From Candidatus Woesearchaeota archaeon (GTDB taxonomy: Archaea > Nanobdellota > Nanobdellia > Woesearchaeales > WJKR01): DNA of 51,483 bases. Shown here piece after piece: positions 12,109-25,948 of the stretch. The stretch is taken from the NCBI GenBank assembly GCA_016927245.1, contig JAFGNA010000013.1, forward strand, positions 1-51,483, read 5' to 3'. Numbering within the stretch: position 1 is the first letter of the stretch; the number at the start of each line of letters is the position of its first letter. The translations under genes were made by a program, and so were the position numbers. The notes beneath the pieces are model-generated. The model was not told the DNA's origin. It saw only the letters and a program-made list of their open reading frames with translations, and ran no database searches.

Positions 12109-12233
12109 TATGAGCCTGTGAGGCCTTTAACCCAAATAATTCTTTTTAATTAACTTTTTTTATGATAACATAGTTAATTTTAGATACTTTTTGTGGTTTT
12201 ATTTGTACCTGATAAGGTTATGAGCTTGTGAGA
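12109..12233. repeat. Two degenerate copies of the tRNA-Arg 3'-end-like repeat
   Basis: TATGAGCCTGTGAGG at 12109-12123 and TATGAGCTTGTGAGA at 12219-12233 resemble TATGAGCCCGGGAGG at the tRNA-Arg (25829-25843), with two and four differences. The spacer is AT-rich and carries a further inverted repeat, AATTAACT (12148-12155) with AGTTAATT (12172-12179). They may be decayed attachment sites at the left edge of the Fic insertion; given the mismatches this is weak. Confidence 0.3.
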
Positions 12234-12242
12234 ATAAGGTCT

Positions 12243-12284
12243 AGGTGACCACAAAATAAGAAAAGTTTAAATATGTGGTCACCT
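12243..12284. promoter_or_regulatory. 42-bp inverted repeat enclosing the fic TATA box
   Basis: AGGTGACCACA (12243-12253) and its perfect inverse TGTGGTCACCT (12274-12284) flank a 20-base AT-rich spacer that contains the TATA box (GTTTAAATAT, 12264-12273) of the fic gene. A protein bound to the arms would cover the promoter. An almost identical structure follows the gene at 13241-13282. Confidence 0.65.
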
Positions 12285-12295
12285 TATTGTATTGT

Positions 12296-13213
12296 ATGTT
12301 CCTCGAGAAGAGAAAATCCGGGAAGAGCATAAAATATTATGTAGTGTATTCTTTTAGGGATGAGCATAATAAAGTCATCAAACTGAGGCGTTATCTCGGC
12401 ACAAATCTTTCTGAAAAACAGTTGGAGAAGCTCTCAAAAAGGGCTGAGGAACTTCTTGAGGAGCAAGCCAAGGGGTTCAAGACAGATGTTTTCAATTTTT
12501 CTTTGACCAATAAACAGCTACAATCACTCAATAAATTTGATGAACAAATCAAAGTCTTTCATCTCAGTGAGCAACAATGGCGACAATTTACAGAAGCATT
12601 TGTCTATAATACCAATGCGATCGAAGGATCGGCTGTTTTGCCAGATGAAGTCCCTATCATCCTTAAGAGTAAAGAGGCAAAAGATGATGAGGAACGAGAA
12701 ACAAAAGGTGTTGCGAAAGCGATCGATTTCATACGTTCGACAAAGCAGGATGTTTCGGTGAGCCTCATTCTGAAATTGCATCAACTCTGTTTCGAAGGGT
12801 CGAAATCGTTTGCTGGGAAATTGCGGGATGTGGAAGTCGTCATTCGAGGAAGAGGCGGTGAGATAATCCATCGAGGATCACCTGCAATTGCTGTAGAAAA
12901 AGAGCTGAAAGAACTAGCTGCTTGGTATAAGAAGAACAAGCAGAAGTTCAAACCACTGGTCTTGGCTGCTATTATGCACAACCAATTTGAAGACATCCAC
13001 CCTTTTCAGGACGGTAATGGTCGCGTTGGACGATTATTGCTGAATTATGTGTTGTTACAGCACAATTACCCGCCAATAAACATTCTTTTTGAAGACAGAG
13101 CAGAATATTACTCTACGCTGCAAGAATACCAGAAGAACGACAAATTACGGCCGACGATGCAATTCTTGATAAAACAATATAAGAAAACGCTCAAGCAGGT
13201 GCGCAAAAAGTGA
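12296..13213 (+). CDS. Fic-domain protein (class II, with inhibitory motif)
   Basis: 305 residues from ATG at 12296, chosen because a TATA box lies about 27 bases upstream; an ATG at 12275 is too close. The Fic core motif is HPFQDGNGRVGR (His235 catalytic), which in this family transfers AMP or another nucleotide to a protein hydroxyl. The preceding inhibitory helix TNAIEG (residues 106-111) matches the class II (S/T)xxxE(G/N) consensus and would keep the enzyme autoinhibited. About 60 N-terminal basic, coiled residues come first. The gene is much AT-richer than its neighbours and bracketed by inverted repeats, pointing to transfer. No antitoxin gene is adjacent, as expected when the inhibitor is intramolecular. 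Confidence 0.92.
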   Translation: MFLEKRKSGKSIKYYVVYSFRDEHNKVIKLRRYLGTNLSEKQLEKLSKRAEELLEEQAKGFKTDVFNFSLTNKQLQSLNKFDEQIKVFHLSEQQWRQFTEAFVYNTNAIEGSAVLPDEVPIILKSKEAKDDEERETKGVAKAIDFIRSTKQDVSVSLILKLHQLCFEGSKSFAGKLRDVEVVIRGRGGEIIHRGSPAIAVEKELKELAAWYKKNKQKFKPLVLAAIMHNQFEDIHPFQDGNGRVGRLLLNYVLLQHNYPPINILFEDRAEYYSTLQEYQKNDKLRPTMQFLIKQYKKTLKQVRKK

Positions 13214-13223
13214 CTTTTTGGCA

Positions 13224-13242
13224 CTAGAATCAAAGATTCTAG
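13224..13242. terminator. Hairpin after fic
   Basis: CTAGAATC and GATTCTAG form a perfect 8-bp stem around an AAA loop, 10 bases past the fic stop. It partly abuts the following 42-bp inverted repeat. It is a probable RNA 3'-end structure. Confidence 0.5.
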
Positions 13243-13282
13243 GTGACTACAAAAACTGAAAAAAAATGATTTGTGGTCACCT
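13241..13282. repeat. Second 42-bp inverted repeat, downstream of fic
   Basis: AGGTGACTACA (13241-13251) and TGTGGTCACCT (13272-13282) repeat the arms found upstream of fic with one base change and exactly the same total length (42) and spacer (20). The paired structures bracket the fic gene, resembling termini of a mobile unit or two binding sites for one regulator. Confidence 0.65.
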
Positions 13283-13294
13283 AACGAAAAGTGG

Positions 13295-13310
13295 TATGAG
13301 CCCGGGAGCC
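13295..13310. repeat. tRNA-Arg 3'-end-like repeat, copy 1 (possible att site)
   Basis: TATGAGCCCGGGAGCC is identical to 20183-20198. Its first 14 bases equal 25829-25842, which is the 3' end of tRNA-Arg (TCG) plus two flanking bases. It lies between fic and the AspRS gene and marks the left edge of the AspRS/S66 cluster. Confidence 0.6.
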
Positions 13311-13339
13311 AACTTCCGACGAGATTTATAAATAGTTCT

Positions 13340-14644
13340 TTATGGTTCTAGTCTTTTCACATCTCTTGGGAACAAACTGGCGTATTTGATGTTGTCGAGT
13401 CCTAGTGCTTTTGCGGTGGTTCTTTCCAGTCCTATGCCCATGCCGCCGTGCGGTGGCATGCCGTACTTGAATGCGTCGAGGTATTTTTCTAGCCCTTTAT
13501 CAGTGAGGCCGAATATTCTTAGATTGCTCAGAAGTTGTTCATAATCATGTATTCGTTGCCCGCCGGTAGTTATTTCTAATCCTCTGTAGATGAGGTCGAA
13601 GCCTTCAGTAATCTCGGGGTTGCCTGGTGTAGGCATCGTGTAGAATGGTCGTTTCTTTGTTGGATAATTGGTGATGAATATGAAGTCGGAGCCGTGTTCT
13701 TCTTGAGCATATTTTGTGAGTAGTCTTTCGGCTTTCGGGTCGATGTCTCCCTCTTCTCTGTTTTTGTAGCCGTATTTTGATTTGATGATGTCAATGCCTT
13801 CATTGAGGGCTAATCGTGGGGTTTCTTTTGGTACATTGATGCTTGTTTTGAAGTATTGTTGTATCTCATCACCATGCTCTTCATTAATTTTTCCTAGGAT
13901 GTATTGCATCATTGATTCTTCCAGGTCCATGAGTTCTGTGTACGAGTCGATGAAACCCATTTCCATGTCTAGGCTGATGTATTCGTTGATGTGTCTTGAG
14001 GTGTTGTGTTTTTCTGCTCTGAAAACAGGTCCTATTTCGAAAACTCTTTCGAGGCCTGATCCTACCATTATTTGCTTGTAGAGCTGCGGGCTTTGTGCGA
14101 GGAATGCGTCTCTTCCGAAGTAGTCTATCTTGAACATGTTCGCTCCGCCTTCAGCTATTTGCGGTACTATTTTCGGTGAGAATATTTGGGTGAATCCTTC
14201 GCTTCTCATGTATTCTGAGAAGTGTTTGGCGATATCGGCCTGTATTTTGAATAGGGCGTTGTTTTTTGGGTTTCTTACGGAGAGTACTCGATGGTTGAAT
14301 TCTTGGTCTGGGTTGTTTTGTGCCTTTGTACTGATTGGTAGTGGGTAGTCTTCTTTCGGGCTGGTGAGTACTTGGTGGTCTGTTGCTTGGAATTCCACTC
14401 CCGGTATGCCGCTTTTCACGCCTGATGTTGTTGGGGTTCCTGTGAACGATACGATGTCATATTTCTTTATGTCGAGCGTTTTCCCTTCTGGGTTGTCGAT
14501 GACTACTTGTATTGGTGAGGTCCGGTCTCTTACTTCTAAGAATGCTATTTTTCCTTTGTCTCGGATGTTGTGCACCCATCCGTATATCTGTTGTCCCTCT
14601 TCGTTGATTGTTGTTGTTAGTTCCTTGATGAGTGTGCGTTTCAT
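13340..14644 (-). CDS. aspS: Aspartyl-tRNA synthetase, archaeal type
   Basis: 434 residues, the usual length of an archaeal AspRS. The N-terminal OB fold (about 1-105) binds the anticodon. The class II core follows, with motif 1 around EGFTQIFSPKIV, flipping loop EGGANMF, motif 2 FRAEKHNTSRHINEYISLDM, Asp-binding GLEITTGGQRIHDY, and motif 3 GIGLERTTAKALGLDN followed by SLFPRDVKRLEP. The OB fold has His in GWVH (His25); as I recall the archaeal work, His here goes with non-discriminating enzymes that charge both tRNA-Asp and tRNA-Asn. A minus-strand TATA near 14662-14674 fits a leaderless ATG. It is less GC-rich than the core genes and divergent from the AspRS-like cluster. Confidence 0.93.
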   Translation of the reverse strand: MKRTLIKELTTTINEEGQQIYGWVHNIRDKGKIAFLEVRDRTSPIQVVIDNPEGKTLDIKKYDIVSFTGTPTTSGVKSGIPGVEFQATDHQVLTSPKEDYPLPISTKAQNNPDQEFNHRVLSVRNPKNNALFKIQADIAKHFSEYMRSEGFTQIFSPKIVPQIAEGGANMFKIDYFGRDAFLAQSPQLYKQIMVGSGLERVFEIGPVFRAEKHNTSRHINEYISLDMEMGFIDSYTELMDLEESMMQYILGKINEEHGDEIQQYFKTSINVPKETPRLALNEGIDIIKSKYGYKNREEGDIDPKAERLLTKYAQEEHGSDFIFITNYPTKKRPFYTMPTPGNPEITEGFDLIYRGLEITTGGQRIHDYEQLLSNLRIFGLTDKGLEKYLDAFKYGMPPHGGMGIGLERTTAKALGLDNIKYASLFPRDVKRLEP

Positions 14645-14793
14645 GCGCTACTTGCGAGTGGATTTATTTTAAAAAAATGTTGGTGACAGGAGCGTTGTTT
14701 TTCCGGTTTTTTTCCGATTTTGTGTCCGTTGGCCGAAATTTTTTTTGTTATCAGGTAGTAATTAACTTAAATAAAAAATTTTTTTTGTGTCTT

Positions 14794-15930
14794 ATGTTAG
14801 GGCCGTACACCGCAGAAGATGATGGCGTCATAGGATATAAGGGAAACCGCGTTTTCCCGAAAAATGAATCCATTGACAACTATGTCTTCACGGAGAGAGA
14901 AATGGCACAAAGGCATAACTCGATAGCGAATGATGGCCTTTGGGGGCACGTAGCGAACATCAATCATCAAATAGCGCAATCGACCATCCGCTACTTCAAC
15001 GAGCAGGGGGCGCTCTTCACGCTCTTGCCGCTGACCACAAGGATGATATCTTCACCAGGGGCGTTCTACGGACGAGAAGCCCTGGACTATACTACTGATA
15101 CTGCGCCTATAACTCTTGATTGGTTCGACCTCGGCCGAAAGGCGTTCCTTGCCGAATCTTCCCAGATATACCTTGAACTAGCACTCATGCAACAAGGGGT
15201 AGATCAGGTATATGCCATATACAACTCTTTCAGGAAAGAAGAGGCCGACACAACACATCTCTCAGAATTCCACCACATTGAATATGAAGGGAAGATATCG
15301 CAGCAAAGGAACGAGCAACATGTGTTGGGGCTGACGAAAAACATTATCAATGATGTCTTGAACAAACAAGAACCTTCGCTTGCCTACTTCTTGGACCAAC
15401 GTGATCTCAAAGAACTGCAGGCGCTGGGAGAAAACATCGAGAGAACACCTGTCATCACTTTGCAAGAGGCCCTGCAAACGCTCTACTTGGAGACGAAAGA
15501 CGACAAATATAGGCCATTCACGCTGGAACACTTCCGTTCGTGGGAAGAAGTGAAGCTTACGGAGATTTATGGCACTCTTATCGGTGTAAACGAGTTCCCT
15601 TTGCTAGAAGTGCCGTTCTACCATGCCGTGGTTGATGGCAAGGAACCTGCTGTTGCTGACAATACCGATTTTATCTGGCCAGGATACAGGGAATATGTCG
15701 GCAGCGGCCAAAGAATAAGAGGTGTTGATGAGCTCTCGCAGAAAGCGGACATATTTAACCTCCCAAAAGAAGACTATGCGCCCTACCTGCAATCAAGGAT
15801 GTTTGATACGTACCGGCAAACAGCCGGTTTTGGCATGGGTTGGGAAAGATTGCTCCAAGGGCTGCTCAAGATGCCGACTATTTGGTCTGCCTCCGCATTC
15901 CCGCGAGGCCATACAACGCTTAAGCCGTGA
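14794..15930 (+). CDS. AspRS/AsnRS-like class II synthetase paralogue lacking the anticodon domain
   Basis: 378 residues from ATG at 14794; a TATA-like ACTTAAATAAAA (14766-14777) precedes it by about 25 bases. It aligns with the catalytic core of AspRS/AsnRS but has no OB fold, only about 50 residues before the core. Motif 2 is FRKEEADTTHLSEFHHIEYE, where the RHxxE of the true enzyme has become THLSE. The amino-acid site GSGQRIRGVDEL and motif 3 GFGMGWERLLQGLLKM are intact, so it can probably still make an adenylate. Without an anticodon domain it is unlikely to charge tRNA normally. Known relatives with this build include archaeal AsnRS-like asparagine synthetase. It is first in a run of four overlapping or abutting genes. 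Confidence 0.85.
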   Translation: MLGPYTAEDDGVIGYKGNRVFPKNESIDNYVFTEREMAQRHNSIANDGLWGHVANINHQIAQSTIRYFNEQGALFTLLPLTTRMISSPGAFYGREALDYTTDTAPITLDWFDLGRKAFLAESSQIYLELALMQQGVDQVYAIYNSFRKEEADTTHLSEFHHIEYEGKISQQRNEQHVLGLTKNIINDVLNKQEPSLAYFLDQRDLKELQALGENIERTPVITLQEALQTLYLETKDDKYRPFTLEHFRSWEEVKLTEIYGTLIGVNEFPLLEVPFYHAVVDGKEPAVADNTDFIWPGYREYVGSGQRIRGVDELSQKADIFNLPKEDYAPYLQSRMFDTYRQTAGFGMGWERLLQGLLKMPTIWSASAFPRGHTTLKP

Positions 15931-16931
15931 TTAAGATGATTCCTCCAAGAAAGGTATCGGGTAGACGAGTGATAGGGCTGGTGGCGCCTTCCCTGCCGGG
16001 AAAGGTCATCGATGGACGGCAGTTCCGGAGAGGTGTCGACCGACTTCGGCAACTAGGCTACGAAACGATAGTGGGGGAAGCTTGTCTCGATCGTCCGTAT
16101 GATCTGGGTGCGTCAATCGCTGCTCGCGCACGTGATATCAACAGGTTCTTCGAGGATGATCAAATAGATGCTATCATGGGGGTTATTGGAGGCTATAATG
16201 CTAACGAAGTGCTTCCTCATATCGATTATGGGCTTGTCGTGAAAAATCCCAAACCATTCTTTGGATATAGTGATCTTTCAGCAATTAATCTCTCGTTGCT
16301 CTCTCAGGCGGACCAGATGAGTTACTCGGGTTCGATGCTCGTGTCTTTTTGTCCCAAACAATTGGCTTCCATAACAATAGATGGTTTCTTGCAAGCGATA
16401 AAAGGGGTGAATCTGACGGATGAATGGAAGGCTCCTGCGAGTTACGCTTATGACGATTGGTTCAGAGAAGACGTTCCTGTTAGGGAGTGGCACGCTTCAG
16501 AAGGTATCTATGTCATCAATGAAGGGGTGACGGAAGGGACGATTATACCGACCAACCTGGACACCCTTCTTTCGCTCGTAGGGACTAATTATCTGCCGTC
16601 GCTTCAAGGAGTTGTACTCTTGTTAGAAGAAAACATTCAGGCTACGAATAACCTGTTCAGAAGGAACTTCGCCCAACTGGCGCAGACGGGTATTATGGAC
16701 GGGCTTAATGCCTTGGTCATGGGGAGGTTTCCAGGTCCGCAACGAGAAAACAAAGACGCGCTCACCGAAGTGCTGCATCATTATCTCCCCGCAAAAGAGT
16801 ATCCTGTCATCACGAACGTCAACTATGGCCATACCGATCCGAGCAGCACATTCCTAGTGGGGGGTACTGCCACTATCAATACGTACGATCGAAAGTTCAC
16901 GATCGCGAGACCAGAGGTTGAACGACAATGA
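15927..16931 (+). CDS. S66 serine peptidase, MccF-like (copy A)
   Basis: 334 residues. The GTG start overlaps the stop of the previous gene by four bases (GTGA); ATG at 15936 is the alternative. S66 triad candidates are Ser115 in FFGYSDLSA, Glu234 in VLLLEEN, and His302 in NYGHTDP. The order and spacing match LD-carboxypeptidase/MccF proteins. Features of the MccF branch are the Trp-containing loop before the Glu (DDWFREDVPVREWHASEG) and NEGVTEGTIIPTNLDTLLSL. There is no signal peptide, so it acts in the cytoplasm. Archaea have no bacterial murein, so cleavage of an amide in a nucleotide-peptide or small metabolite, as MccF does with microcin C, is the better hypothesis. Confidence 0.85.
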   Translation: MIKMIPPRKVSGRRVIGLVAPSLPGKVIDGRQFRRGVDRLRQLGYETIVGEACLDRPYDLGASIAARARDINRFFEDDQIDAIMGVIGGYNANEVLPHIDYGLVVKNPKPFFGYSDLSAINLSLLSQADQMSYSGSMLVSFCPKQLASITIDGFLQAIKGVNLTDEWKAPASYAYDDWFREDVPVREWHASEGIYVINEGVTEGTIIPTNLDTLLSLVGTNYLPSLQGVVLLLEENIQATNNLFRRNFAQLAQTGIMDGLNALVMGRFPGPQRENKDALTEVLHHYLPAKEYPVITNVNYGHTDPSSTFLVGGTATINTYDRKFTIARPEVERQ

Positions 16932-17761
16932 GTCATGACGATGAAGTGTTGGCTTATTTTGCGGACAAAGCGGAAGGTTACGACTTGGTGGAACATCAAC
17001 ACTATTGGCGATTATCTGATGAACTGCTCTGGCACCTATTGACAAAAGATGTCCTCGCGCAATTCAATGATGATTTCTCCTTCCTCGATGCGGGCGGAGG
17101 AACTGGCAGGTGGAGCATGAGATTATTGGATTCGTACAGCAAAGCTACAGGCACTATCTATGACCTTTCTCCTGAAATGCTCGAGCAGGCGAAGAAAAAA
17201 GTTAATGGTGATAGGGCTGGACGGCTACAGATAATCAATGGTGACATTACAGACATGTTTGGCGTGCCGGACGAGCAATTCGATGTCACTTATAATTTTC
17301 ATAACGTATTGGGTTTCGTGGATGGCCCTGAACGAGCACTTGCGGAGATGGGCCGTGTGACCAGGAAAGGCGGTTATGTGGTCTCGGTTGTTCCGAACAA
17401 GTATCACCTCGTGTTTTTTAATCTGCAACAAGGGAATGTTGAAGAAGCGGAAAAAGCCGCTTTGAACAATATGGGTCGTTTCACCCAGGACATGCCTGCT
17501 ATACGCTTGTTCACGCCGCATTCTCTTAGCCGATTATATGGTCGTGTTGGCTTGGAAGCTGTTTTTGTGAAAGGGTTTCCAGTAACCATTTACCCTGGCT
17601 ATCAGGAAACGAGGATATCGGGCGATACCGCTTCTCTAAAGGATATCTTGTCAGGTGAAGAAAGCTATGGTCGGATTTTAGCGATTGAAAAAAACCTTGT
17701 TGAGTATGCGGATGCTGCTGCCCGAGGAAACAATTTATTGATGGTCGGGAAGAAATCGTGA
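16928..17761 (+). CDS. SAM-dependent methyltransferase (class I)
   Basis: 277 residues; the ATG overlaps the stop of the S66 gene (ATGA). The Rossmann core shows motif I FLDAGGGTGRWSMRLL (about 51-66), the acidic end of strand 2 in TIYDLSPEMLEQA, motif III-like INGDITDM, and motif IV FDVTYNFHNVLGFVDGPERA, as in ubiquinone/menaquinone-type (Methyltransf_11/25) enzymes. The C-terminal 130 residues are a substrate lid. The methyl acceptor is unknown; sitting between two synthetase-like/peptidase pairs suggests it acts on the same small molecule, or blocks its action. Confidence 0.88.
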   Translation: MSHDDEVLAYFADKAEGYDLVEHQHYWRLSDELLWHLLTKDVLAQFNDDFSFLDAGGGTGRWSMRLLDSYSKATGTIYDLSPEMLEQAKKKVNGDRAGRLQIINGDITDMFGVPDEQFDVTYNFHNVLGFVDGPERALAEMGRVTRKGGYVVSVVPNKYHLVFFNLQQGNVEEAEKAALNNMGRFTQDMPAIRLFTPHSLSRLYGRVGLEAVFVKGFPVTIYPGYQETRISGDTASLKDILSGEESYGRILAIEKNLVEYADAAARGNNLLMVGKKS

Positions 17762-17773
17762 TTGGTGTTAGTG

Positions 17774-19027
17774 ATGGCTATAGATGATATAATAAGAGTT
17801 GATGGGGGATCTCAATCAATGATTGGAAGGATAGCATCAATTAGAAAAATGGGGAAGAATCTTGCTTTTGTGCAACTGGAGAACCATCATGGTGCCTTGC
17901 AGGCGGTGGTTGTCAATCCGCGTGCGTATGGCTTGAATAAAGGGTCGGTGATTCGCGTATCCGGGACTGTTGTCAAGAACGATGATGTTACCTCAGGAAC
18001 GCCTGGTTACGAGTTGCAAGCAGATGTCGTGGAGTTGTTGTCGAAGAACCATGATAAGTATAACAATCCGAATGATGTCCTGCTGGATAAGAGTTCGCAA
18101 ATTGATCGACGACACCTCTACTTACGTAATCCTTCTGTAAGGAATATCTTTGAGGCGAAATCTTTGTTTATGAAAACTTGTCGTAGTGTGCTTGATTATT
18201 ATGGTTTCTTAGAGGTGCAGTCGCCTACCGTGGTCGGCGAATCGGTTGAAGGGCCGGTGACCGCATTCGGAGTTGATTATTATGGGAAAGATGCTTTTCT
18301 TACTTTGAGTAATATGCTCTATCATGAGATGCTCATGGCGGGTGATTTTGAGAAAGTTTATGAGATGAGGACCTTGTTTCGGCAAGACAAGTCAAAAACT
18401 TCCGTGCACCTTAGCGAATTTACCATCCTTGATTACACTGCTGCTAATCATTCTCGAAATGACCTTATGGGAATCACTGAAGAGATTGTTCAAGCTTCAG
18501 CGAGTCAACTGCAAAGAAAAGGTTTTTCACTTGGCGTCGAGCCGAAGACTCCTTTTCCTGTGGTAACTTATTCTGAAGTGATAGGTTATCTTAACGAACA
18601 GGGTGCGGATATCGTTTGGGGGTCGACGCATCAGTTGCCCAAGCAGTATTCTTCTCTTTTGGAAAGGCGCTTTCCGAGCTTTTTTTGGCTGATAGACCAA
18701 CCTGAAGCTTCCAAAGCGTTCTTCACCAGCGCCCGGGAGGAGGATGGCCGCATGGTTTGTAATGATTTCCAGTTGTGGTACGCGAAGAATACCAACTTGG
18801 CGGATGGCTCGGAACGGGTGGTCGAAAAGGAGGATGTTATTGCTAAGATGGTCGATCGCGGGATGGACCCAAGGCATTTCTCGCATTATTTGAGTTCATT
18901 GGATGGTCTTTATCCTAATGCGGGGGTCGGGTTGGGGGTCGAGCGAACGTTCATGACTCTTATGGGGTTGGATAACATCAAGGATGTCATGCTTTTCCCG
19001 AGGAACATGAAGACGTTGTATCCTTGA
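17774..19027 (+). CDS. AspRS-like class II synthetase paralogue with OB fold
   Basis: 417 residues from ATG at 17774, which has GGTG six bases upstream; TTG 17762 and GTG 17765/17771 are alternatives. The OB fold (about 1-95) starts MIGRIASIRKMGKNLAFVQL, with Ala where AspRS has His or Trp. The core keeps motif 1 (GFLEVQSPTVV), flipping-loop analogue ESVEGPVTAF, motif 2 FRQDKSKTSVHLSEFTILDY (SRHxxE altered to SVHLSE), and motif 3 GVGLGVERTFMTLMGLDNIK. The Asp-pocket segment GLExTTGGQRI is replaced by TNLADGSERV. It thus folds like AspRS but probably uses another amino acid or has another job. It abuts the methyltransferase gene. Confidence 0.85.
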   Translation: MAIDDIIRVDGGSQSMIGRIASIRKMGKNLAFVQLENHHGALQAVVVNPRAYGLNKGSVIRVSGTVVKNDDVTSGTPGYELQADVVELLSKNHDKYNNPNDVLLDKSSQIDRRHLYLRNPSVRNIFEAKSLFMKTCRSVLDYYGFLEVQSPTVVGESVEGPVTAFGVDYYGKDAFLTLSNMLYHEMLMAGDFEKVYEMRTLFRQDKSKTSVHLSEFTILDYTAANHSRNDLMGITEEIVQASASQLQRKGFSLGVEPKTPFPVVTYSEVIGYLNEQGADIVWGSTHQLPKQYSSLLERRFPSFFWLIDQPEASKAFFTSAREEDGRMVCNDFQLWYAKNTNLADGSERVVEKEDVIAKMVDRGMDPRHFSHYLSSLDGLYPNAGVGLGVERTFMTLMGLDNIKDVMLFPRNMKTLYP

Positions 19028-19069
19028 GCGGAGGAAAATATATTTAAACAGTGTGTTTGTAAAGGTTGA

Positions 19070-20104
19070 ATGAAGATGGTGGTTTATCCGGAAAGGCTTG
19101 TCAAGGGTGACACGATAGCGTTTGTCTCTCCTTCTGGCGCGCTCGGTGCTCTTTGTCCGCACCGGCTGGAACAAGCGAAGGCTTTCCTTGAGAAGCAAGG
19201 CTTTCATGTCGAGGAGTACCTGACGACAAGGGCTAAGAGGGGCTTCTCTACGGGCACGCCGCAAGAACGGGTCGCTGATTTGCATGCTGCGTTCAAGGAT
19301 GAGCGGGTGAAAGGGATTGTCTGTACGATAGGGGGGTTGGCTGCCAATGAGTTGTTGCCGCTCATCGATTATGACCTGATCAAGGCCAATCCTAAGATAT
19401 TCTGCGGCTATTCTGATATTACCCATCTGCATAGCGCTTTTTTGAGAAAAGCGGGTCTCGTCACGTTTTATGGGCCTTCTGCGATGAATCAGTTCGGTGA
19501 GTTTCCTGAGCCTTTGTCTTACACGTGGGAGCACTTCAAGAAAGCGACGATGAGTGTCGGGCCGGTAGGGCGGGTGTTACCTTCCGATGAGTGGACTGAT
19601 GAGATCCTTGACTGGTTCACGAAAGCTGATCAGGCCAGGCCGAGGAAGCTTCGCAAGAATGAGGGTTTCTCTTGGTTCGGAAGCGGTAAGGCAAAAGCCC
19701 CTATTGTCGGTGGTTGCTTGAACTCCTTGCACAAGCTCAAAGGGACGCCTTTTGCGCCTGAGTATGATGGGAGAATAGTCTTCTTTGAGACTTCTGAGGG
19801 GGAGGATTTCAGGAGGGGGGTGCCCCTAGGGGTTGTTGATTCGCAACTTGTCGATCTGGTGAATGCGGGCGTCTTTAAGAAAGTGAAAGGTGTTATCGTC
19901 GGAAGGCCTTTTGGATACGGTAGTGAAGAGCACGAACAGTTCATCGACGTTGTGAAGAAGAGGTTGGCTCCTTTGGATATCCCTTTGCTCATGAACTTCA
20001 ACATAGGCCACTGCGATCCTATCATGAGCATCCCTCTCGGCACGGTTGTTTCTATGGATGCCGATAATAAAGAATTGCTGTTTGTTGAGCCAGGGGTGCA
20101 CTGA
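19070..20104 (+). CDS. S66 serine peptidase, MccF-like (copy B)
   Basis: 344 residues, about the length of E. coli MccF. Triad candidates are Ser115 (CGYSDITH), Glu240 (VFFETSEG) and His314 (IGHCDP). The loop PSDEWTDEILDWFTKA (Trp175, Trp182), and the later NEGFSWFGSGKAKAPIVGGC, are typical of MccF-like members, where a Trp stacks on the nucleobase of the substrate. No signal peptide. It has its own TATA (ATATATTTAAACA, about 19036-19048) 25-30 bases before the ATG, so it can be expressed apart from the upstream genes. It differs enough from copy A for the pair to be ancient paralogues rather than a recent duplication. Confidence 0.9.
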   Translation: MKMVVYPERLVKGDTIAFVSPSGALGALCPHRLEQAKAFLEKQGFHVEEYLTTRAKRGFSTGTPQERVADLHAAFKDERVKGIVCTIGGLAANELLPLIDYDLIKANPKIFCGYSDITHLHSAFLRKAGLVTFYGPSAMNQFGEFPEPLSYTWEHFKKATMSVGPVGRVLPSDEWTDEILDWFTKADQARPRKLRKNEGFSWFGSGKAKAPIVGGCLNSLHKLKGTPFAPEYDGRIVFFETSEGEDFRRGVPLGVVDSQLVDLVNAGVFKKVKGVIVGRPFGYGSEEHEQFIDVVKKRLAPLDIPLLMNFNIGHCDPIMSIPLGTVVSMDADNKELLFVEPGVH

Positions 20105-20182
20105 GTTCTTGACATAAACCAGTTTTTCTGCGCAAAACCTTTTACGAACAATAGTAATCCCAGAAATGTGACATGAATGTAA

Positions 20183-20198
20183 TATGAGCCCGGGAGCC
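20183..20198. repeat. tRNA-Arg 3'-end-like repeat, copy 2 (possible att site)
   Basis: TATGAGCCCGGGAGCC, identical to 13295-13310; 14 bases equal the tRNA-Arg end at 25829-25842. It falls between the second S66 gene and the strongly AT-rich block. The 220-base gap around it (20105-20324) shows no other gene. Confidence 0.6.
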
Positions 20199-20324
20199 CA
20201 CATGTCTCTTTTGGACGTCTTTTGGACTCCGTTATGCGCGTTGTAATACTTTTTCCGAGGTTTTGTGTTGGTTGCGTGTTGTTTTGGGAATATGACACTT
20301 TTCCTATGATTAAAAAACATTAAG

Positions 20325-21295
20325 CTATTTCTTCTTGTATACCCACATGTCTGAAATTCCTTTTTTTGGAAGCAATCTATAGCTAATGTCTTCGATTCCA
20401 GTTATTGATTTGTATAATAGAAAATCTGCTATGACTTTTGGTTTTTGTTTAAAAACATAATCCCAGTCTATTTTTGTCCGTTCCATCTCTCTTGTTGTTT
20501 TAAATTCCTTTTTTGTTTCATCCAAATGCCTTAAATCCAAAAAAATTCTTCTATATATTTTGAAATGCTCTCTTAGTGAAATATATGGTTGATAAAATGC
20601 CATTGCATCGTATCGAGTTCTTATTGTTCCCGGGCCATATTTTGTATGGATGAAGTTAGGCATAAATGTATCATCACATACATCTTTTTGAGCTGGTATT
20701 TCATATAAATCCTTATTTCTTATCATGAAAGCTCTTCCATGAAAGTAAATTTTTGATTTTTTTTCAAATTCTTTCGAAACGTTCTCTTGGGGAAATGCAT
20801 CAACATATGATTTAAATTCAGAAACATCATTGACAGATATTTCTGATTCTGGATGTAGAGCTCTGACGTGTAATATGTCAAAAAGAACTGATTGCCAAAC
20901 CGATAACGACTCAGATCTTTTTGGTACGGGCCAAGATCCTGCAACTATTAAAGAAGGATTTTTTTTATTTCGTCATATAATTTTTCAGAACAATTTTCTT
21001 CTAAGGTTACATCAGCATCAACAAATAGTAAAGGAACATCTTTCTCAACATGATTCGTTATTGCTTTTTGAGCAAATGAAATGCCTTTCTTGCTATGGAT
21101 AATACTAATATTTAGTCTGGCATATTTTTTTCTTGATTCGCTAATCTTCTCTTCTGTTTTATCGGTACAACCATTGAGACAAATTATTGTTTCTAAATTA
21201 CCTTTTATTTTTTGTTGATTAAGAGATTCAAGACAAGTCTCGATGGTGTTTTCCTCATTATATGCTGCAATTCCAAAGTAAAGATTGGGTTTCAT
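20325..21295 (-). pseudogene. Family 2 glycosyltransferase with a homopolymer frameshift
   Basis: The N-terminal 115 codons (from ATG 21295) encode a GT-A start: FGIAAYNEENTIETCLESLN and the DxD-type LFVDADVTLEEN. The frame then stops just after a run of eight A (plus-strand T 20959-20966). Adding one base restores an open frame (NPSLIVAGSWPVPKRSES onwards) that continues without a stop to 20325. So one gene of about 320 residues is split by a single-base deletion in a homopolymer. It could be a sequencing error, a recent mutation or a slippage site. The start overlaps the previous stop (TAATG). It would transfer sugar from a nucleotide donor; the acceptor is unknown. Confidence 0.8.
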
Positions 21296-22179
21296 TAGTA
21301 CATCACAGTTTTTGCATAGGTGTCTTTACCGGTTTTTTTTAGCATTCTTGACTCTTTTAGTGACTTTAATGCCTCGTCTCTTCGTCCGAGTGCTTTAAGA
21401 GCCATTGCCTTATCATAATGGGCTTCGGCATAATGAGGATCGATTTCTATGGCTACCAAATGATCATTCAGAGCATTCTGAAAATCTTTTTTAATAAAAT
21501 AACCAAATCCTCTGTTATTAATGGCTAATGAAGATTGTGGCATTAGTTCGATAGCTTGATTAAATGCAATAATCATTTCATCAAATTCATTGAGGTAGAG
21601 GTGAGCATTACCCTTATTTCTCCACCCTTCGCCAAATTGTTCGTTTATAGAAATTGCTCTATTAAAATCAGCTAATGCATCCTTAAAGTTATTTAAATAC
21701 TTTAAACAGCGACCTCTAAGATTATATGCTTCAACAAAATTTTTATTTTTTTCGATTGCTTGAGTAAAAAAGTTTACTGCTAAATCTGGTTTTTCTCTAA
21801 GGAGTAGACTGTGTCCTTTATTGTATGATAATCTTGCAGGGAACCCATTGATATCAACATCTTTATCAAATAGTTCAACAAACGTTTTTTTAAATTCTTC
21901 AACCTTGACTTTATAAATTGGAAACTCGCCCATGTTACAAAAGATATAATCGGCAATATTTTCGTTTGTTGCTCTGCCTACAATATCATCAAGATATGAA
22001 TTTGAAAGTTCATCAGTTATTTTGTTTAATTCACGCATTGGATTAGTGTGATCAATTCCTGCCACGAAGCCATTCTTCAATTCACCATTAATAATAACTT
22101 CAACGAAATATTTGTCTATTTTGGTTTCTCTTGAGCCATGTTGTGCCTCAAAGTTACTTAGAAATCCCATTTTTGCCAT
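21295..22179 (-). CDS. Degenerate PTPS/QueD-like domain fused to TPR repeats
   Basis: 294 residues. Residues about 24-95 read like 6-pyruvoyl-tetrahydropterin synthase/QueD: YFVEVIINGELKNGFVAGID, then ITDELSNSYLDDIVGRATNE and IADYIF, matching the G-E-L ... ELDHxYLND ... PTxENIAxYI pattern. The zinc motif HGH is missing (KIDKYF instead) and LDHxYLND is LSNSYLDD, so catalysis is probably lost; only His14 remains. From about 118 to 285 there are five TPR units (for example PDLAVNFFTQAIEKNKNFVE). The start overlaps the upstream stop (TAATG). A scaffold that binds a pterin-like ligand and partners of this operon is one idea. Confidence 0.7.
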   Translation of the reverse strand: MAKMGFLSNFEAQHGSRETKIDKYFVEVIINGELKNGFVAGIDHTNPMRELNKITDELSNSYLDDIVGRATNENIADYIFCNMGEFPIYKVKVEEFKKTFVELFDKDVDINGFPARLSYNKGHSLLLREKPDLAVNFFTQAIEKNKNFVEAYNLRGRCLKYLNNFKDALADFNRAISINEQFGEGWRNKGNAHLYLNEFDEMIIAFNQAIELMPQSSLAINNRGFGYFIKKDFQNALNDHLVAIEIDPHYAEAHYDKAMALKALGRRDEALKSLKESRMLKKTGKDTYAKTVMY

Positions 22180-23303
22180 TATTGGATCACCTTAGCAATG
22201 TCTCCAAAATTGCTTGAGATTTGTTCTAATCGTTTGTTAATTATTTCAGAGGAAACTTTATTTTCTAGTTTTGCTGATTTTGCTCTAGGATGTTCTGAAT
22301 AAGCAAAACACGTGAAAAAATCGAATCGTGCCTGTTCAAGTAATTGAAGTGTTTGGTGGAAATCGTCCTTTGTTTCTCCTGGAAAACCAACCATTATATG
22401 AGTCCCTATATCAAAATCAAATTTTTTCATCAGATTCATTGATTGAATAATATTCTCTCTAGAATATTTTCTGTTCATTAATTCAAGGATTTTGTTACTT
22501 CCTGATTGGATGGGGAAAGTAATTCCCCCAATTCTTTTGTTTTGGTTTGCTTTCTGAAATATTTTTTCATAATTATTTAAATCATTAATAAGCCAGCTGA
22601 TTCCAAAATCATGGATAAATAATTTGAAATGACCTTCCGATGAGATTATTTTATTTAGAAGAGTTGAGAAGTTAGTTTTATTATCAATTCCATACGCACC
22701 TGTATCTCCCGCCATCAGCATAATTGTTGGTTCTTTTTTATCAATTGCATAATCAACTTTTTGAAGAATACTTTCAATGGAATCGCTTTTTAATTTACCT
22801 GTTGCTTCTTTAATCATGCAATAGGAACAGTCATTCAGGCAACCCTCAGATATTCTTATCTTATAACCATTTTTTGCCTTTTCAAAGCGGTTTCTTGCAT
22901 AATTAGTTGACTTTTCAATTTGTTTTCTTTTTAGGAAAGCTTTTGTTGGATAGGGAATCTCCCCCATTCTTTTTTTAGGAGCGAATATTTTATCTAATGA
23001 TTCTACAGATCGAGGAGAGAAAGAGTAAAAAACATTAAACTCGTTTATTTTTTCAGGACTTATTTTGGGGAGGCAACCACCTACTAGTATTTTTGCATAG
23101 GGATTTTTCTGTTGCAATTCTGAAATTTCGCGAAGTGATTTTTCCTCATTGTACTGATCTACACCACAAGTAATAACACAAAGATAGTCTGCATCCTCGG
23201 GATGATTAGTGATGTGTATATCGTTGTCCTTAAAATAGTTGATTATCCTCTGAGCATCCAAATCTCTTTGCTCACAACCAGTAGAACTAACATACGCTTT
23301 CAT
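22179..23303 (-). CDS. Radical SAM methylthiotransferase (MiaB/CDKAL1-like) without TRAM domain
   Basis: 374 residues. The N-terminal UPF0004 domain has its three cluster Cys (STGCEQ, VITCGVD, GGCLPK), and the radical SAM core has EGCLNDCSYCM (Cx3Cx2C) for the second cluster. Later MTTase blocks are present: FPIQSGSNKILELMNRKY and IMVGFPGETKDDFHQTL. Usual family members end in a TRAM RNA-binding domain; here the protein stops before one. A complete TRAM-bearing member is encoded at 37391. Loss of TRAM suggests a substrate other than bulk tRNA, or an RNA or protein delivered by a partner. It overlaps its neighbours by one base at both ends. Confidence 0.88.
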   Translation of the reverse strand: MKAYVSSTGCEQRDLDAQRIINYFKDNDIHITNHPEDADYLCVITCGVDQYNEEKSLREISELQQKNPYAKILVGGCLPKISPEKINEFNVFYSFSPRSVESLDKIFAPKKRMGEIPYPTKAFLKRKQIEKSTNYARNRFEKAKNGYKIRISEGCLNDCSYCMIKEATGKLKSDSIESILQKVDYAIDKKEPTIMLMAGDTGAYGIDNKTNFSTLLNKIISSEGHFKLFIHDFGISWLINDLNNYEKIFQKANQNKRIGGITFPIQSGSNKILELMNRKYSRENIIQSMNLMKKFDFDIGTHIMVGFPGETKDDFHQTLQLLEQARFDFFTCFAYSEHPRAKSAKLENKVSSEIINKRLEQISSNFGDIAKVIQ

Positions 23304-24448
23304 TATGTTAAATCTCCCCTATGAACTTCCCAATCAATGGTGCTTCTCATACTTACGGGAAATATTGTGTTGACATAAGGGTGCTCTTGGAATAACTTTG
23401 ACTCTGCGTATGCTATCTCCAAGATTTGTTCTTCTGAGGGTTGAGGATGTTTACTCAAAACAGATATCGGGTCTGCATGAAAAATATTTGATGCGATACC
23501 TATCCCCTTTTGAAGAAAATATTCGTGACCCTCTATGCTACTTTGTGGATGTTCAAGACCCCAAACTAATCCACAATACACATTAAAATTCCCGAAAACA
23601 TCTTTTGCAGCATCAAGTGCGTCAACCCATTTATCATAACCATACAGTGCGTGTTTGCCAGGACATATTTCTTTGAATTTTTGACGATTATATACTTCTA
23701 TGTTAAAAGCTATTGAAGTAACGCCTGCTTCTTTATACTCTTCTAATAATTTGAAATCATTGGGTGGATGAGCCAATAAATGGGTGGGAATCTTATCTTC
23801 TAATGATTCATACATCCATGTCAGTGGTTTGATGACTTTTTCTCTAGTTATTTGGTCGTTTTCTGGTGTTCCTGCTGTTATGGAAATAAGAGGTATGTCT
23901 CTCCATAGGGTCTTTTCAAAAATGTTTGTTGCTTCGCGAATATTATCTTCAGAGAATTCGGATACCATATATTTTCCGACAGTGCTTCGTGTATTTTTCA
24001 TAGAACAAAACCCACATGCTTTTCCTTCTGGGAAATAAAAGCATTCGGGATAAAGAAAAAAACCTGGAGTGTCAGATCCTGCAACCGCAATTATTGACTC
24101 CGTGGGAGTGCCATCTGATAACTTCTTATCAAAATATGCAGGTCTTTCTGGTAAAGTAATCTCCTGAATAAACGTGTTATTGTTATACAATTGAATAACG
24201 TCATCATCATATTTAAGATTCCACGGCGAACCCTCTCGTCTTAATAGCGCGCTTATTATGTTGTGACCTAATTCTAGAACTTGAGGAAATTTGTTTTTCT
24301 GCGTGACATTTCTGCTGGTCTTTCCATAAACAAATTGATTATCATAAAATGGTTCCTTTATTTTAGTAAAAAGATCGATTTCGAAATCGATTCCTTGAGC
24401 GAGCAAAGATGTTTTTAATTCAATTGTAGCTTTTCTATCCAAAACCAT
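23303..24448 (-). CDS. Radical SAM protein with unusual Cx8CxxC cluster motif
   Basis: 381 residues. A Cys triad is seen in PECFYFPEGKACGFCSM: Cys136, Cys145, Cys148, spacing Cx8Cx2C instead of Cx3Cx2C. Aromatic-Cys (GFC) at the third position, SITAGTPENDQ as a GGE-like strand, and IAFNIEVYNRQKFKEICPGK with VYCGLVWGLEHPQ support a radical SAM barrel. Downstream lies the methylthiotransferase gene, overlapping by one base (TAATG), so this starts a four-gene operon. A minus-strand TATA (about 24474-24485) precedes the ATG. The N-terminal 110 residues are not recognised. Substrate unknown. Confidence 0.75.
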   Translation of the reverse strand: MVLDRKATIELKTSLLAQGIDFEIDLFTKIKEPFYDNQFVYGKTSRNVTQKNKFPQVLELGHNIISALLRREGSPWNLKYDDDVIQLYNNNTFIQEITLPERPAYFDKKLSDGTPTESIIAVAGSDTPGFFLYPECFYFPEGKACGFCSMKNTRSTVGKYMVSEFSEDNIREATNIFEKTLWRDIPLISITAGTPENDQITREKVIKPLTWMYESLEDKIPTHLLAHPPNDFKLLEEYKEAGVTSIAFNIEVYNRQKFKEICPGKHALYGYDKWVDALDAAKDVFGNFNVYCGLVWGLEHPQSSIEGHEYFLQKGIGIASNIFHADPISVLSKHPQPSEEQILEIAYAESKLFQEHPYVNTIFPVSMRSTIDWEVHRGDLT

Positions 24449-24529
24449 ATTTTAATCACTACTAGGAAATAGTATCTATTTATAATGGTTTCGCGAACAT
24501 TTTTAAAAAATACTATTGTTCTTATCGTT

Positions 24530-25117
24530 GTGAAACAAAAATTTGCCGTTGATCTCGATGAAACTCTTGCACATACAAATATTCTTTGGGCTGACCATCA
24601 TATTAAATATTATGGAAATCCAGAAAAGTTGAATGCGAATGAAATAGTGAGAAAGTATTCCTTTGTTAAAAACGTCCCTTACTGGCAGTTCGCAGAAGCC
24701 TCAAAATGGGTAGAGTCCCATATTAACTCCAGTGACGCCAAACTTGAAATTCCAGTCATTAAGCAAGCTAAAGAGAACATTCAATACATTCCCATTGCTT
24801 GCTATTTAACAAACAGACCTTTCAGCACTATTCAAGGAACAAAAGAGTGGTTGTCCTTACATAACTTTCCTAAGAGGCCCGTACTCTCAGCAAATAAGGG
24901 TCTGGAGTGGAAAGCTCAACAGTTAGAGCGATTTTATCCCTATATATCAGGAATAATAGATGATAATGTGGAAATAACTAACTATCTTTCAGAACAATAT
25001 GAAGGTAAAATTATACTTTATTCAAACCAAGAAAATATGGCTACTCATTTAGATGTTGTTGTATGTCCTACTTGGAATGATATTGCTATTGAAGTTCAAA
25101 GATTGATCAGAGAATAA
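24530..25117 (+). CDS. HAD-like hydrolase (5'-nucleotidase-like)
   Basis: 195 residues from GTG at 24530; ATG at 24485 would add 15 residues of no HAD character, and a TATA-like TTTTAAAAAATACT (24501-24514) sits about 25 bases before the GTG. The catalytic strand is FAVDLDETLAH (nucleophile and acid Asp). Motif II Thr lies in ACYLTNRPFS, and motif IV acid pair in GIIDDNVEI. The layout resembles deoxynucleotidase-type HAD proteins. It is divergent from the radical SAM operon and overlaps the end of the convergent kinase gene by 22 bases. Confidence 0.75.
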   Translation: MKQKFAVDLDETLAHTNILWADHHIKYYGNPEKLNANEIVRKYSFVKNVPYWQFAEASKWVESHINSSDAKLEIPVIKQAKENIQYIPIACYLTNRPFSTIQGTKEWLSLHNFPKRPVLSANKGLEWKAQQLERFYPYISGIIDDNVEITNYLSEQYEGKIILYSNQENMATHLDVVVCPTWNDIAIEVQRLIRE

Positions 25118-25572
25118 ATTTCTTCAACAACGTCTTCTTTTCTTTTATTTGCTGTTTGTATGTTTATGCCTTCTTTGACTGATGAGGTCATGTTGAATAC
25201 TTGCGTTATTGCCTCTGTAGACATTGGTTTTCTTCTCTGGTTATTTCTTTGCTGGCAAAGGTCTATGCTGGCTAATAATGTGAATATTTGGATGTGTTCA
25301 CATTGTTTTTTTAAGTGGGAAATCTGTTCTTGTCTATAAAAACAGCCATCTATGATGATGACGTTGTTATCCTTTGCTTGTTGCATGATGATTTCATTAG
25401 CTCTAATGAAATTTTCTGCTGAAATACCATTGCCTTCAATAGTGTCTAGTTTGTGTTTTTCTAAAACTTGATCCATCGAGTAATAGTTCGCATTAAGTTT
25501 CTTGGCTAATATTTTTGCTATAGTACTTTTTCCCACTCCTGCAGGACCTCTAATAACAATGCAATAAACCAT
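25096..25572 (-). CDS. Small P-loop kinase (AAA_33-like)
   Basis: 158 residues. Walker A GPAGVGKS (9-16) follows the initial strand MVYCIVIR; the second strand holds VIIIDGCFYRQEQ, and an Arg-rich lid (CQQRNNQRRKPMS) closes the site. The size and motifs fit small nucleotide, nucleoside or metabolite kinases (AAA_33, Zeta/adenylylsulfate-kinase-like). The phosphate acceptor is unknown. It is last in the AT-rich block before the tRNA-Arg gene. Confidence 0.8.
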   Translation of the reverse strand: MVYCIVIRGPAGVGKSTIAKILAKKLNANYYSMDQVLEKHKLDTIEGNGISAENFIRANEIIMQQAKDNNVIIIDGCFYRQEQISHLKKQCEHIQIFTLLASIDLCQQRNNQRRKPMSTEAITQVFNMTSSVKEGINIQTANKRKEDVVEEIYSLINL

Positions 25573-25830
25573 TTATAGATATAATGCTTCTTTATTTATT
25601 AATATTCCTGCTATGGCATAGAAGATCGTTGTTTTATAAACAAACCTTCTTTGCTTGAGTTTGCTAGTTCTACTGACACACTTTGCTGATACATGTTTAG
25701 TTTTATTTTTTGACAGAGAATATGAAGATTCCAACACATGTCCTTATTAGGTAAAAGGACACCAGTAGGCTCATATACCCTCAAAAAGAGCTTTAGAAGG
25801 CTTGTATCTTTAGAATTATGAGAAAAAGTA
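25573..25830. other. AT-rich spacer between kinase and tRNA-Arg
   Basis: A minus-strand frame runs from the tRNA gene into this spacer and ends at 25611 (about 60 codons beyond the tRNA). Its product has no recognised similarity. In SSV-type integration the integrase gene overlaps the tRNA in just this way, so a remnant is conceivable, but the peptide shows no recombinase motif. Otherwise I see nothing in the spacer. Confidence 0.3.
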
Positions 25831-25843
25831 TGAGCCCGGGAGG
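25829..25843. repeat. tRNA-Arg 3'-end repeat, copy 3 (presumed original att site)
   Basis: TATGAGCCCGGGAGG is the acceptor/T-stem end of tRNA-Arg (TCG) plus two bases beyond it. Fourteen bases match the copies at 13295 and 20183. The tRNA end is the usual target of archaeal integrating elements. Confidence 0.6.
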
Positions 25844-25948
25844 ATTCGAACCCCCGATCTTCCGGTTTCCTGCGAAATCCGATGTTCTTTCGAACTTTTC
25901 GGATATTCACCGAAGCCGGATGTTCTATCCAGACTAAACTACGGGCCC
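25831..25948 (-). tRNA. tRNA-Arg (anticodon TCG) with a 43-base intron
   Basis: On the minus strand GGGCCCG pairs with CGGGCTC (one G-U), discriminator A, CCA not encoded. The D stem is GTTT/GAAC; the anticodon stem TCCGG/CCGGA encloses the loop C-T-TCG-G-A, giving anticodon TCG. T stem GGGGG/CCTCC holds loop TTCGAAT. Between positions 37 and 38 an extra segment of about 43 bases forms its own helix, the canonical archaeal intron site cut by the splicing endonuclease. A minus-strand TATA (about 25972-25984) is in the right place. The 3' end carries the repeat found at 13295 and 20183. Confidence 0.92.

Follow-up and report, generated by a model that had tools for sequence, protein, structure and literature searches.

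To our knowledge, aminoacyl-nucleotide poisons have hitherto been known only from bacteria. For agrocin 84, encoded by plasmid pAgK84 of Agrobacterium radiobacter K84, AgnA is a truncated asparaginyl-tRNA synthetase (AsnRS) (PMC4392301), AgnB2 is a self-immunity leucyl-tRNA synthetase (LeuRS) (PMC5059758), and TM84 is a stable N-acyl phosphoramidate analogue of Leu-AMP (PMC4307249). Immunity to microcin C involves MccF, MccG and MccH, the last of which has been termed a phosphoramidase, and S66 and S51 resistance genes also occur on their own (PMC9239234). Here we describe a six-gene cluster at 13.3–20.2 kb of a 51,483-nucleotide stretch of DNA from Candidatus Woesearchaeota archaeon (assembly GCA_016927245.1, contig JAFGNA010000013.1, positions 1 to 51,483 of the forward strand; the whole stretch is hereafter the window), which is probably a tRNA-anchored cassette, gained by horizontal transfer, for an aminoacyl-nucleotide antibiotic akin to agrocin 84 and microcin C, with an aspartyl group as its acyl moiety and aspartyl-tRNA synthetase (AspRS) as its target.

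On the minus strand, the cluster comprises a gene for an intact, archaeal-type AspRS (13340–14644), the proposed resistant second copy, which is divergent from five genes on the plus strand: A1, a stand-alone AsnRS/AgnA-type adenylating enzyme without an anticodon-binding domain (14794–15930; its open reading frame spans 14632–15930, with ATG 14794 as the likeliest start); S66a, a serine peptidase of the MccF superfamily (15927–16931); MT, a class I S-adenosylmethionine (SAM)-dependent methyltransferase (16928–17761); A2, a degenerate AspRS paralogue with an OB fold, occupying a variable aminoacyl-tRNA synthetase (aaRS) slot (17774–19027, starting at ATG 17774 or alternatively at TTG 17762); and S66b, an MccF-type peptidase related to AgnC5 and with orthologues of its own adjoining A1 elsewhere (19070–20104). 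A1 and S66a overlap by 4 nucleotides, as do S66a and MT, and MT abuts A2. The genes, positions and overlaps are those described in the initial annotation, with which both the open reading frames and the family assignments from Pfam and NCBIfam profile searches agree. No PADLOC defence model matched the cluster, a generic methyltransferase similarity aside. For comparison, the order in pAgK84 is agnA, then the gene of a SAM enzyme (called AgnB1 here) and agnB2, with the MccF-like agnC5 downstream.

A1 had initially been taken for an AspRS-like protein, but it belongs to the AsnRS/AgnA lineage. It contains no OB fold, lies nearest to AsnRS, not AspRS (137 bits versus the NCBIfam AsnRS cut-off of 414), and is 26.6% identical to AgnA of pAgK84 (tblastn, E 2e-14). 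In a maximum-likelihood tree, A1 and AgnA-like proteins form one clade (support 100/99) inside a supported AsnRS grouping (98/96), separate from AspRS and lysyl-tRNA synthetase (LysRS). Class II motifs 2 and 3 are intact in A1, an AsnRS-type pocket with the QxYLE segment is kept, and the motif 2 pattern FRxExxDxxHL is common to A1 and AgnA, the AsnRS motif being one residue longer. The predicted structure of A1 (predicted local distance difference test, pLDDT, 79) has an AsnRS-like catalytic fold and finds its best structural matches in AsnRS, including complexes with Asn-adenylate analogues; the predicted structures of A1 and MT, of moderate confidence, support the fold only and carry no substrate information.

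The same features bear on the explanation that A1 serves asparagine metabolism, as an asparagine synthetase of the archaeal type (AS-AR) or a moonlighting AsnRS, with unrelated neighbours. AsnRS is the closest relative of A1 among characterised proteins, AS-AR and AsnRS share with it the fold, catalytic motifs and, in AsnRS, the type of pocket, and related bacterial proteins carry the annotation asparagine synthetase A. However, A1 remains below the curated cut-offs for both families (best AsnA model, NF005055, 86.6 bits against 389), AsnRS falls in a separate clade, and the genome has an AsnRS of its own (contig C22), apart from A1. In addition, A1 is rare and patchy, being an accessory gene found in 10 of 371 genomes sampled in the phylum, and MccF-type enzymes and aaRS paralogues are conserved as its neighbours. 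We therefore regard this explanation as very unlikely; the reservation that the two paralogues might be ordinary asparagine synthetase and AsnRS falls away, since neither A1 nor A2 reaches a curated cut-off.

A scan with A1 gave 24 loci (the window and 23 others; loci other than the window carry L numbers below), spread over DPANN archaea and haloarchaea and including a few bacterial bins, at which the A1 homologues are 52–63% identical, except one at 39%. A1 occurs in 2 of 294 Halobacteria, and in a Patescibacteria sample it was found only in the genome already included in the set. S66 peptidases, present in 62 of 343 phylum genomes sampled, are encoded by 9 of the 10 genomes with A1 versus 53 of 333 others (Fisher p ~1e-6, two samples pooled), lie within about 6 kb of A1 in 8 of the 10 (p ~3e-13 for adjacency in 8 genomes under a rough model), and in several of these genomes the S66 beside A1 is the sole one. 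Frequent neighbours of A1 are a hydrolase of the MccF, MccG or MccH type, a SAM enzyme and a degenerate synthetase paralogue of varying type. At 13 loci both AgnB1 and MccD match the SAM enzyme, AgnB1 with scores reaching 258 bits and MccD, to the same family, with 89 bits; at L090 and L091, judged by the visible sequence, the enzyme also belongs to this family. In place of S66, an S51 enzyme is found at L017 and a HIT protein at L014, L021, L019 and L028, so that all three hydrolase types known to include microcin C immunity enzymes occur among the A1 loci, MccH being a HIT protein. The slot filled by A2 in the window holds a prolyl-tRNA synthetase (ProRS)-like protein in most loci, LysRS-like proteins at L010, L011 and L091, a weakly alanyl-tRNA synthetase (AlaRS)-like one at L090 and a LeuRS-like one at L030. 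The gene order is A1, MT, ProRS-like, S66 at L018 and A1, MT, intact ProRS, ProRS-like, S66 at L012, compared with A1, S66a, MT, A2, S66b plus the divergent AspRS in the window. The linkage of A1, S66, SAM enzyme and aaRS paralogue is kept across DPANN archaea, haloarchaea and some bacteria, which disposes of the objection that relatives might not conserve it.

The AspRS gene of the window is accessory, a second aspS whose type is opposite to that of the housekeeping gene. Its product is of canonical archaeal type (530 bits to NF003483, cut-off 353) with its active-site motifs present, whereas the housekeeping AspRS, on another contig (C22:30393-32084, 735 bits), is of bacterial type, and the two share 27–33% identity. 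The 1.1-Mb DPANN genome (24 contigs) has six PF00152 loci; those outside the window include the bacterial-type AspRS and AsnRS, both on contig C22, and one LysRS. The accessory status follows from the distribution within the order, in which bacterial-type AspRS is the rule (52 of 60 genomes), clear archaeal-type AspRS occurs in 7 of the 60, and both types occur together in three, this genome among them. The suspicion of the initial annotation that the AspRS might be a duplicate was thus well founded. A parallel case is provided by the intact ProRS at L012 and L014, which is of bacterial type, with an archaeal-type ProRS elsewhere in both genomes; this duplication mirrors that of AspRS, and wherever checked the intact synthetase of the locus is a second copy (Asp in the window, Pro at L012 and L014). 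Antibiotic producers carry evolutionarily distinct resistant synthetase copies (PMC9437257).

It is conceivable, though we think quite unlikely, that the cluster makes an aminoacyl-nucleotide or peptide-like product other than an antibiotic, such as a signal, an osmolyte, a cofactor or a modification of protein or tRNA, with the S66 enzymes acting in recycling. aaRS paralogues have many non-translational roles (PMC9437257), and amidohydrolase, radical SAM and glycosyltransferase genes accompany A1 at some loci; such a product, however, leaves unexplained both why an intact synthetase of matching type (Asp, Pro) is present as a second copy and why two other types of microcin C immunity enzyme replace S66.

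The GYSD and GH motifs are present in S66a and S66b alike. The best solved relatives of S66a are Lmo1638 (178 bits) and MccF (105 bits), and S66b is far closer to MccF (~171 bits) than to solved muramoyltetrapeptide carboxypeptidases (~60 bits), with AgnC5 and MccF each matching it at 170 bits. MT, whose predicted structure has a pLDDT of 73 and whose orthologues adjoin A1 at L012, L014 and L018, shows weak similarity to the AgnB1/MccD family, in the Rossmann core only. A2 is indeed AspRS-like with an OB fold, as first annotated, but scores 250 bits against the canonical AspRS cut-off of 353. It keeps motif 3 and departs from AspRS in QLYKQ (MLYHE in A2), FRAE (FRQD), TSRH (TSVH) and LEITTGGQR (TNLADGSER). 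Because these altered positions contact Asp, ATP and magnesium in AspRS, A2 probably binds an altered substrate or catalyzes an altered reaction. It was absent from 320 other genomes of the phylum.

From this anatomy, homology, duplication and linkage, we infer a product, its chemistry and toxicity, and the means of resistance to it. In the predicted pathway, the class II active site of A1 would attach a nucleoside monophosphate at an amide nitrogen, giving an N-acyl phosphoramidate as in TM84, and A2, rather than charging tRNA, would provide or transfer an acyl group of the aspartyl type. The slot occupied by A2 would decide which amino acid is used and, through it, which synthetase is targeted, as suggested by the Pro-, Lys-, Ala- and Leu-RS-like proteins that fill it in relatives. 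MT would decorate the product, S66a and S66b would cut the Asp–nucleotide bond within the producer in the manner of MccF, and the divergent archaeal-type AspRS would sustain translation as the resistant target.

An island conferring immunity alone against foreign aspartyl-nucleotide antibiotics, in which A1, MT and A2 inactivate the compound rather than make it, would account for the two S66 peptidases and the second AspRS of another type, all of them defensive, and for a cassette without an exporter, and it has a precedent in the stand-alone S66 and S51 resistance genes (PMC9239234). Nevertheless, A1 groups with a producer gene, agnA, and of all genes at the 24 loci it is the best conserved; its association with SAM enzymes and aaRS paralogues also parallels that in agrocin and related plasmid clusters. 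We consider immunity alone unlikely, biosynthesis together with immunity being the likelier role because A1 belongs with AgnA. The initial proposal, immunity to or synthesis of an aspartyl- or asparaginyl-adenylate-like compound, is thus supported and narrowed towards both functions at once, with Asp as one of several variants.

Several points weigh against an antibiotic cassette. Genes for an exporter, a regulator, a precursor peptide and nucleoside tailoring are all absent from it, and AgnC1–C4, C6, D (D1 and D3), E (E1 and E2), F and G, which cover nucleoside/pentanamide tailoring and the AgnG exporter, have no convincing homologue in it; with exporter, tailoring and delivery genes missing, some likelihood remains for an island of immunity alone or a product that is not an antibiotic. 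The identity of A1 to AgnA is low (26.6%), the A1 tree contained no archaeal asparagine synthetases, and membership of MT in the AgnB1/MccD family is not demonstrable. The catalytic competence of A2 is doubtful, and the Asp version rests on one case, as A2 is known from this genome only; several A1 loci (e.g., L019, L021, L026 and L027) have no recognisable synthetase-like gene in the slot. Finally, the sequence of the second AspRS does not reveal whether it is drug-resistant.

The proposed acquisition by horizontal transfer is based on the boundaries. A 14-nucleotide direct repeat, TATGAGCCCGGGAG, has exact copies at 13295, 20183 and 25829 and a decayed copy at 12109 (five matches in the window at ≤2 mismatches versus 0.38 expected). 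The copy at 25829 overlaps the 3′ end of a minus-strand, intron-containing tRNA gene (25831–25948; Rfam tRNA, 51.8 bits), the proposed integration anchor, which was missed by default ARAGORN and, with introns allowed, was called SeC(tca), a doubtful assignment, the anticodon appearing by eye to be TCG (Arg). The left boundary repeat (13295–13308), within a 26-nucleotide imperfect copy (13288–13313), and the right boundary repeat (20183–20196) duplicate this tRNA 3′ end. The guanine-plus-cytosine (GC) content changes at every repeat (0.557, 0.386, 0.468, 0.336 and 0.610, the step from 0.468 to 0.336 falling at 20183–20196), dividing 12109–25842 into three successive modules (0.386/0.468/0.336 versus 0.56–0.61 outside) separated by tRNA 3′-end copies, and the bounds of the middle module coincide exactly with the six-gene cluster. 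Tandem insertion of islands at a tRNA 3′ end would be expected to leave this pattern. No integrase was recognised in the cluster or the three-module array, and no duplicated tRNA 3′ ends flank the cluster at the other A1 loci. Searches of plasmids (E ≤ 1e-40), phage records and IMG/VR contigs did not return A1 and so give no evidence of carriage by a virus or plasmid. The first module encodes a lone Fic-domain protein (12275–13213) resembling the PADLOC SoFic/PDC-S04 models, and at L031 a Fic gene lies ~3 kb from A1. The third, low-GC module (20183–25828) contains a glycosyltransferase fragment, a TPR protein, a MiaB-like radical SAM protein and a second radical SAM protein.

Other loci with A1 or AgnA-like proteins vary in composition. 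Some A1 loci have amidohydrolase, radical SAM or glycosyltransferase partners; a relationship of the amidohydrolase-like partners to AgnC4 was rejected, as AgnC4 gives no match. In a Patescibacteria bin (L021:200-2674), A1 is directly followed by genes for a HIT protein and an Asparaginase_2 (isoaspartyl peptidase family), a different hydrolase set. A pyridoxal phosphate-dependent decarboxylase of the Orn/Arg type adjoins A1 at L016:1986-3080 and L026:6664-7869, recalling the decarboxylase domain of MccE. On a Pantoea agglomerans plasmid (L086:8353-9948), an annotated GNAT acetyltransferase has an AsnRS/AgnA-like region and is a possible single-gene variant, and on a plasmid of Streptomyces sp. 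NBC_00829 (L087) an AgnA-like protein is encoded within a nonribosomal peptide cluster with a P450. In a Zixibacteria bin (L022:17590-18417, minus strand), a weak MccB-like (ThiF-type) match is located ~6 kb from A1.

The cassette may exemplify a domain-crossing modular class, a proposition on which we hold the evidence evenly balanced, in which the AgnA-type ligase and SAM enzyme are constant, the synthetase paralogue is swappable, an intact second synthetase of the paralogue's type comes from the other domain's lineage, and hydrolases of the MccF, MccG or MccH type are added for self-immunity, here in an integrase-less, tRNA-anchored form. If so, aminoacyl-nucleotide poisons also serve ultra-small archaea as chemical weapons, and a genomic code composed of the aaRS paralogue and the second aaRS would predict the target of each compound. 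Such loci would then yield new synthetase inhibitors as well as new hydrolases and resistance synthetases, and would offer a case in which to examine how class II synthetases without tRNA-binding domains, such as AgnA, form unusual nucleotide conjugates.

It is worth comparing the cassette with the described systems as a whole. With agrocin 84 it shares the AgnA-type truncated AsnRS, the adjacent SAM enzyme, a second synthetase (AgnB2 there), an MccF-like S66 (AgnC5 there) and a mobile location. In agrocin 84, however, the target is LeuRS instead of AspRS, the agn genes include no degenerate aaRS paralogue, and the host is bacterial, whereas genes for nucleoside-sugar, tailoring and export functions are missing from the archaeal window, and MT seems to fall into another subgroup of SAM enzymes. 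With microcin C (mccABCDEF) it has in common the MccF-type peptidases and AspRS as predicted target, and its relatives further share the S51 and HIT enzymes and the MccD-related SAM enzyme. In contrast to microcin C, the cassette has no MccB (ThiF) homologue (MccB finds zero matches in the window) or MFS transporter, no precursor peptide was seen, and the role of ligase is proposed for an aaRS-like protein. Since the tailoring and export genes of the one and MccB and the precursor peptide of the other were not found, we do not place the cassette in either family. Plasmid clusters of Xenorhabdus bovienii, Peribacillus psychrosaccharolyticus and Exiguobacterium sp. Helios also combine an AsnA-like protein, a SAM enzyme, an intact synthetase and an aaRS-like paralogue, with S66 in two of the three; they differ in being of Leu and Ala types and in possessing MFS exporters, and an intact second copy together with a degenerate paralogue of Ala type is found on two bacterial plasmids. 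No description of archaeal or modular agrocin-like clusters was found in the open-access papers searched. Altogether, the cassette is best regarded as a new archaeal, modular variant within the agrocin 84/microcin C kind.

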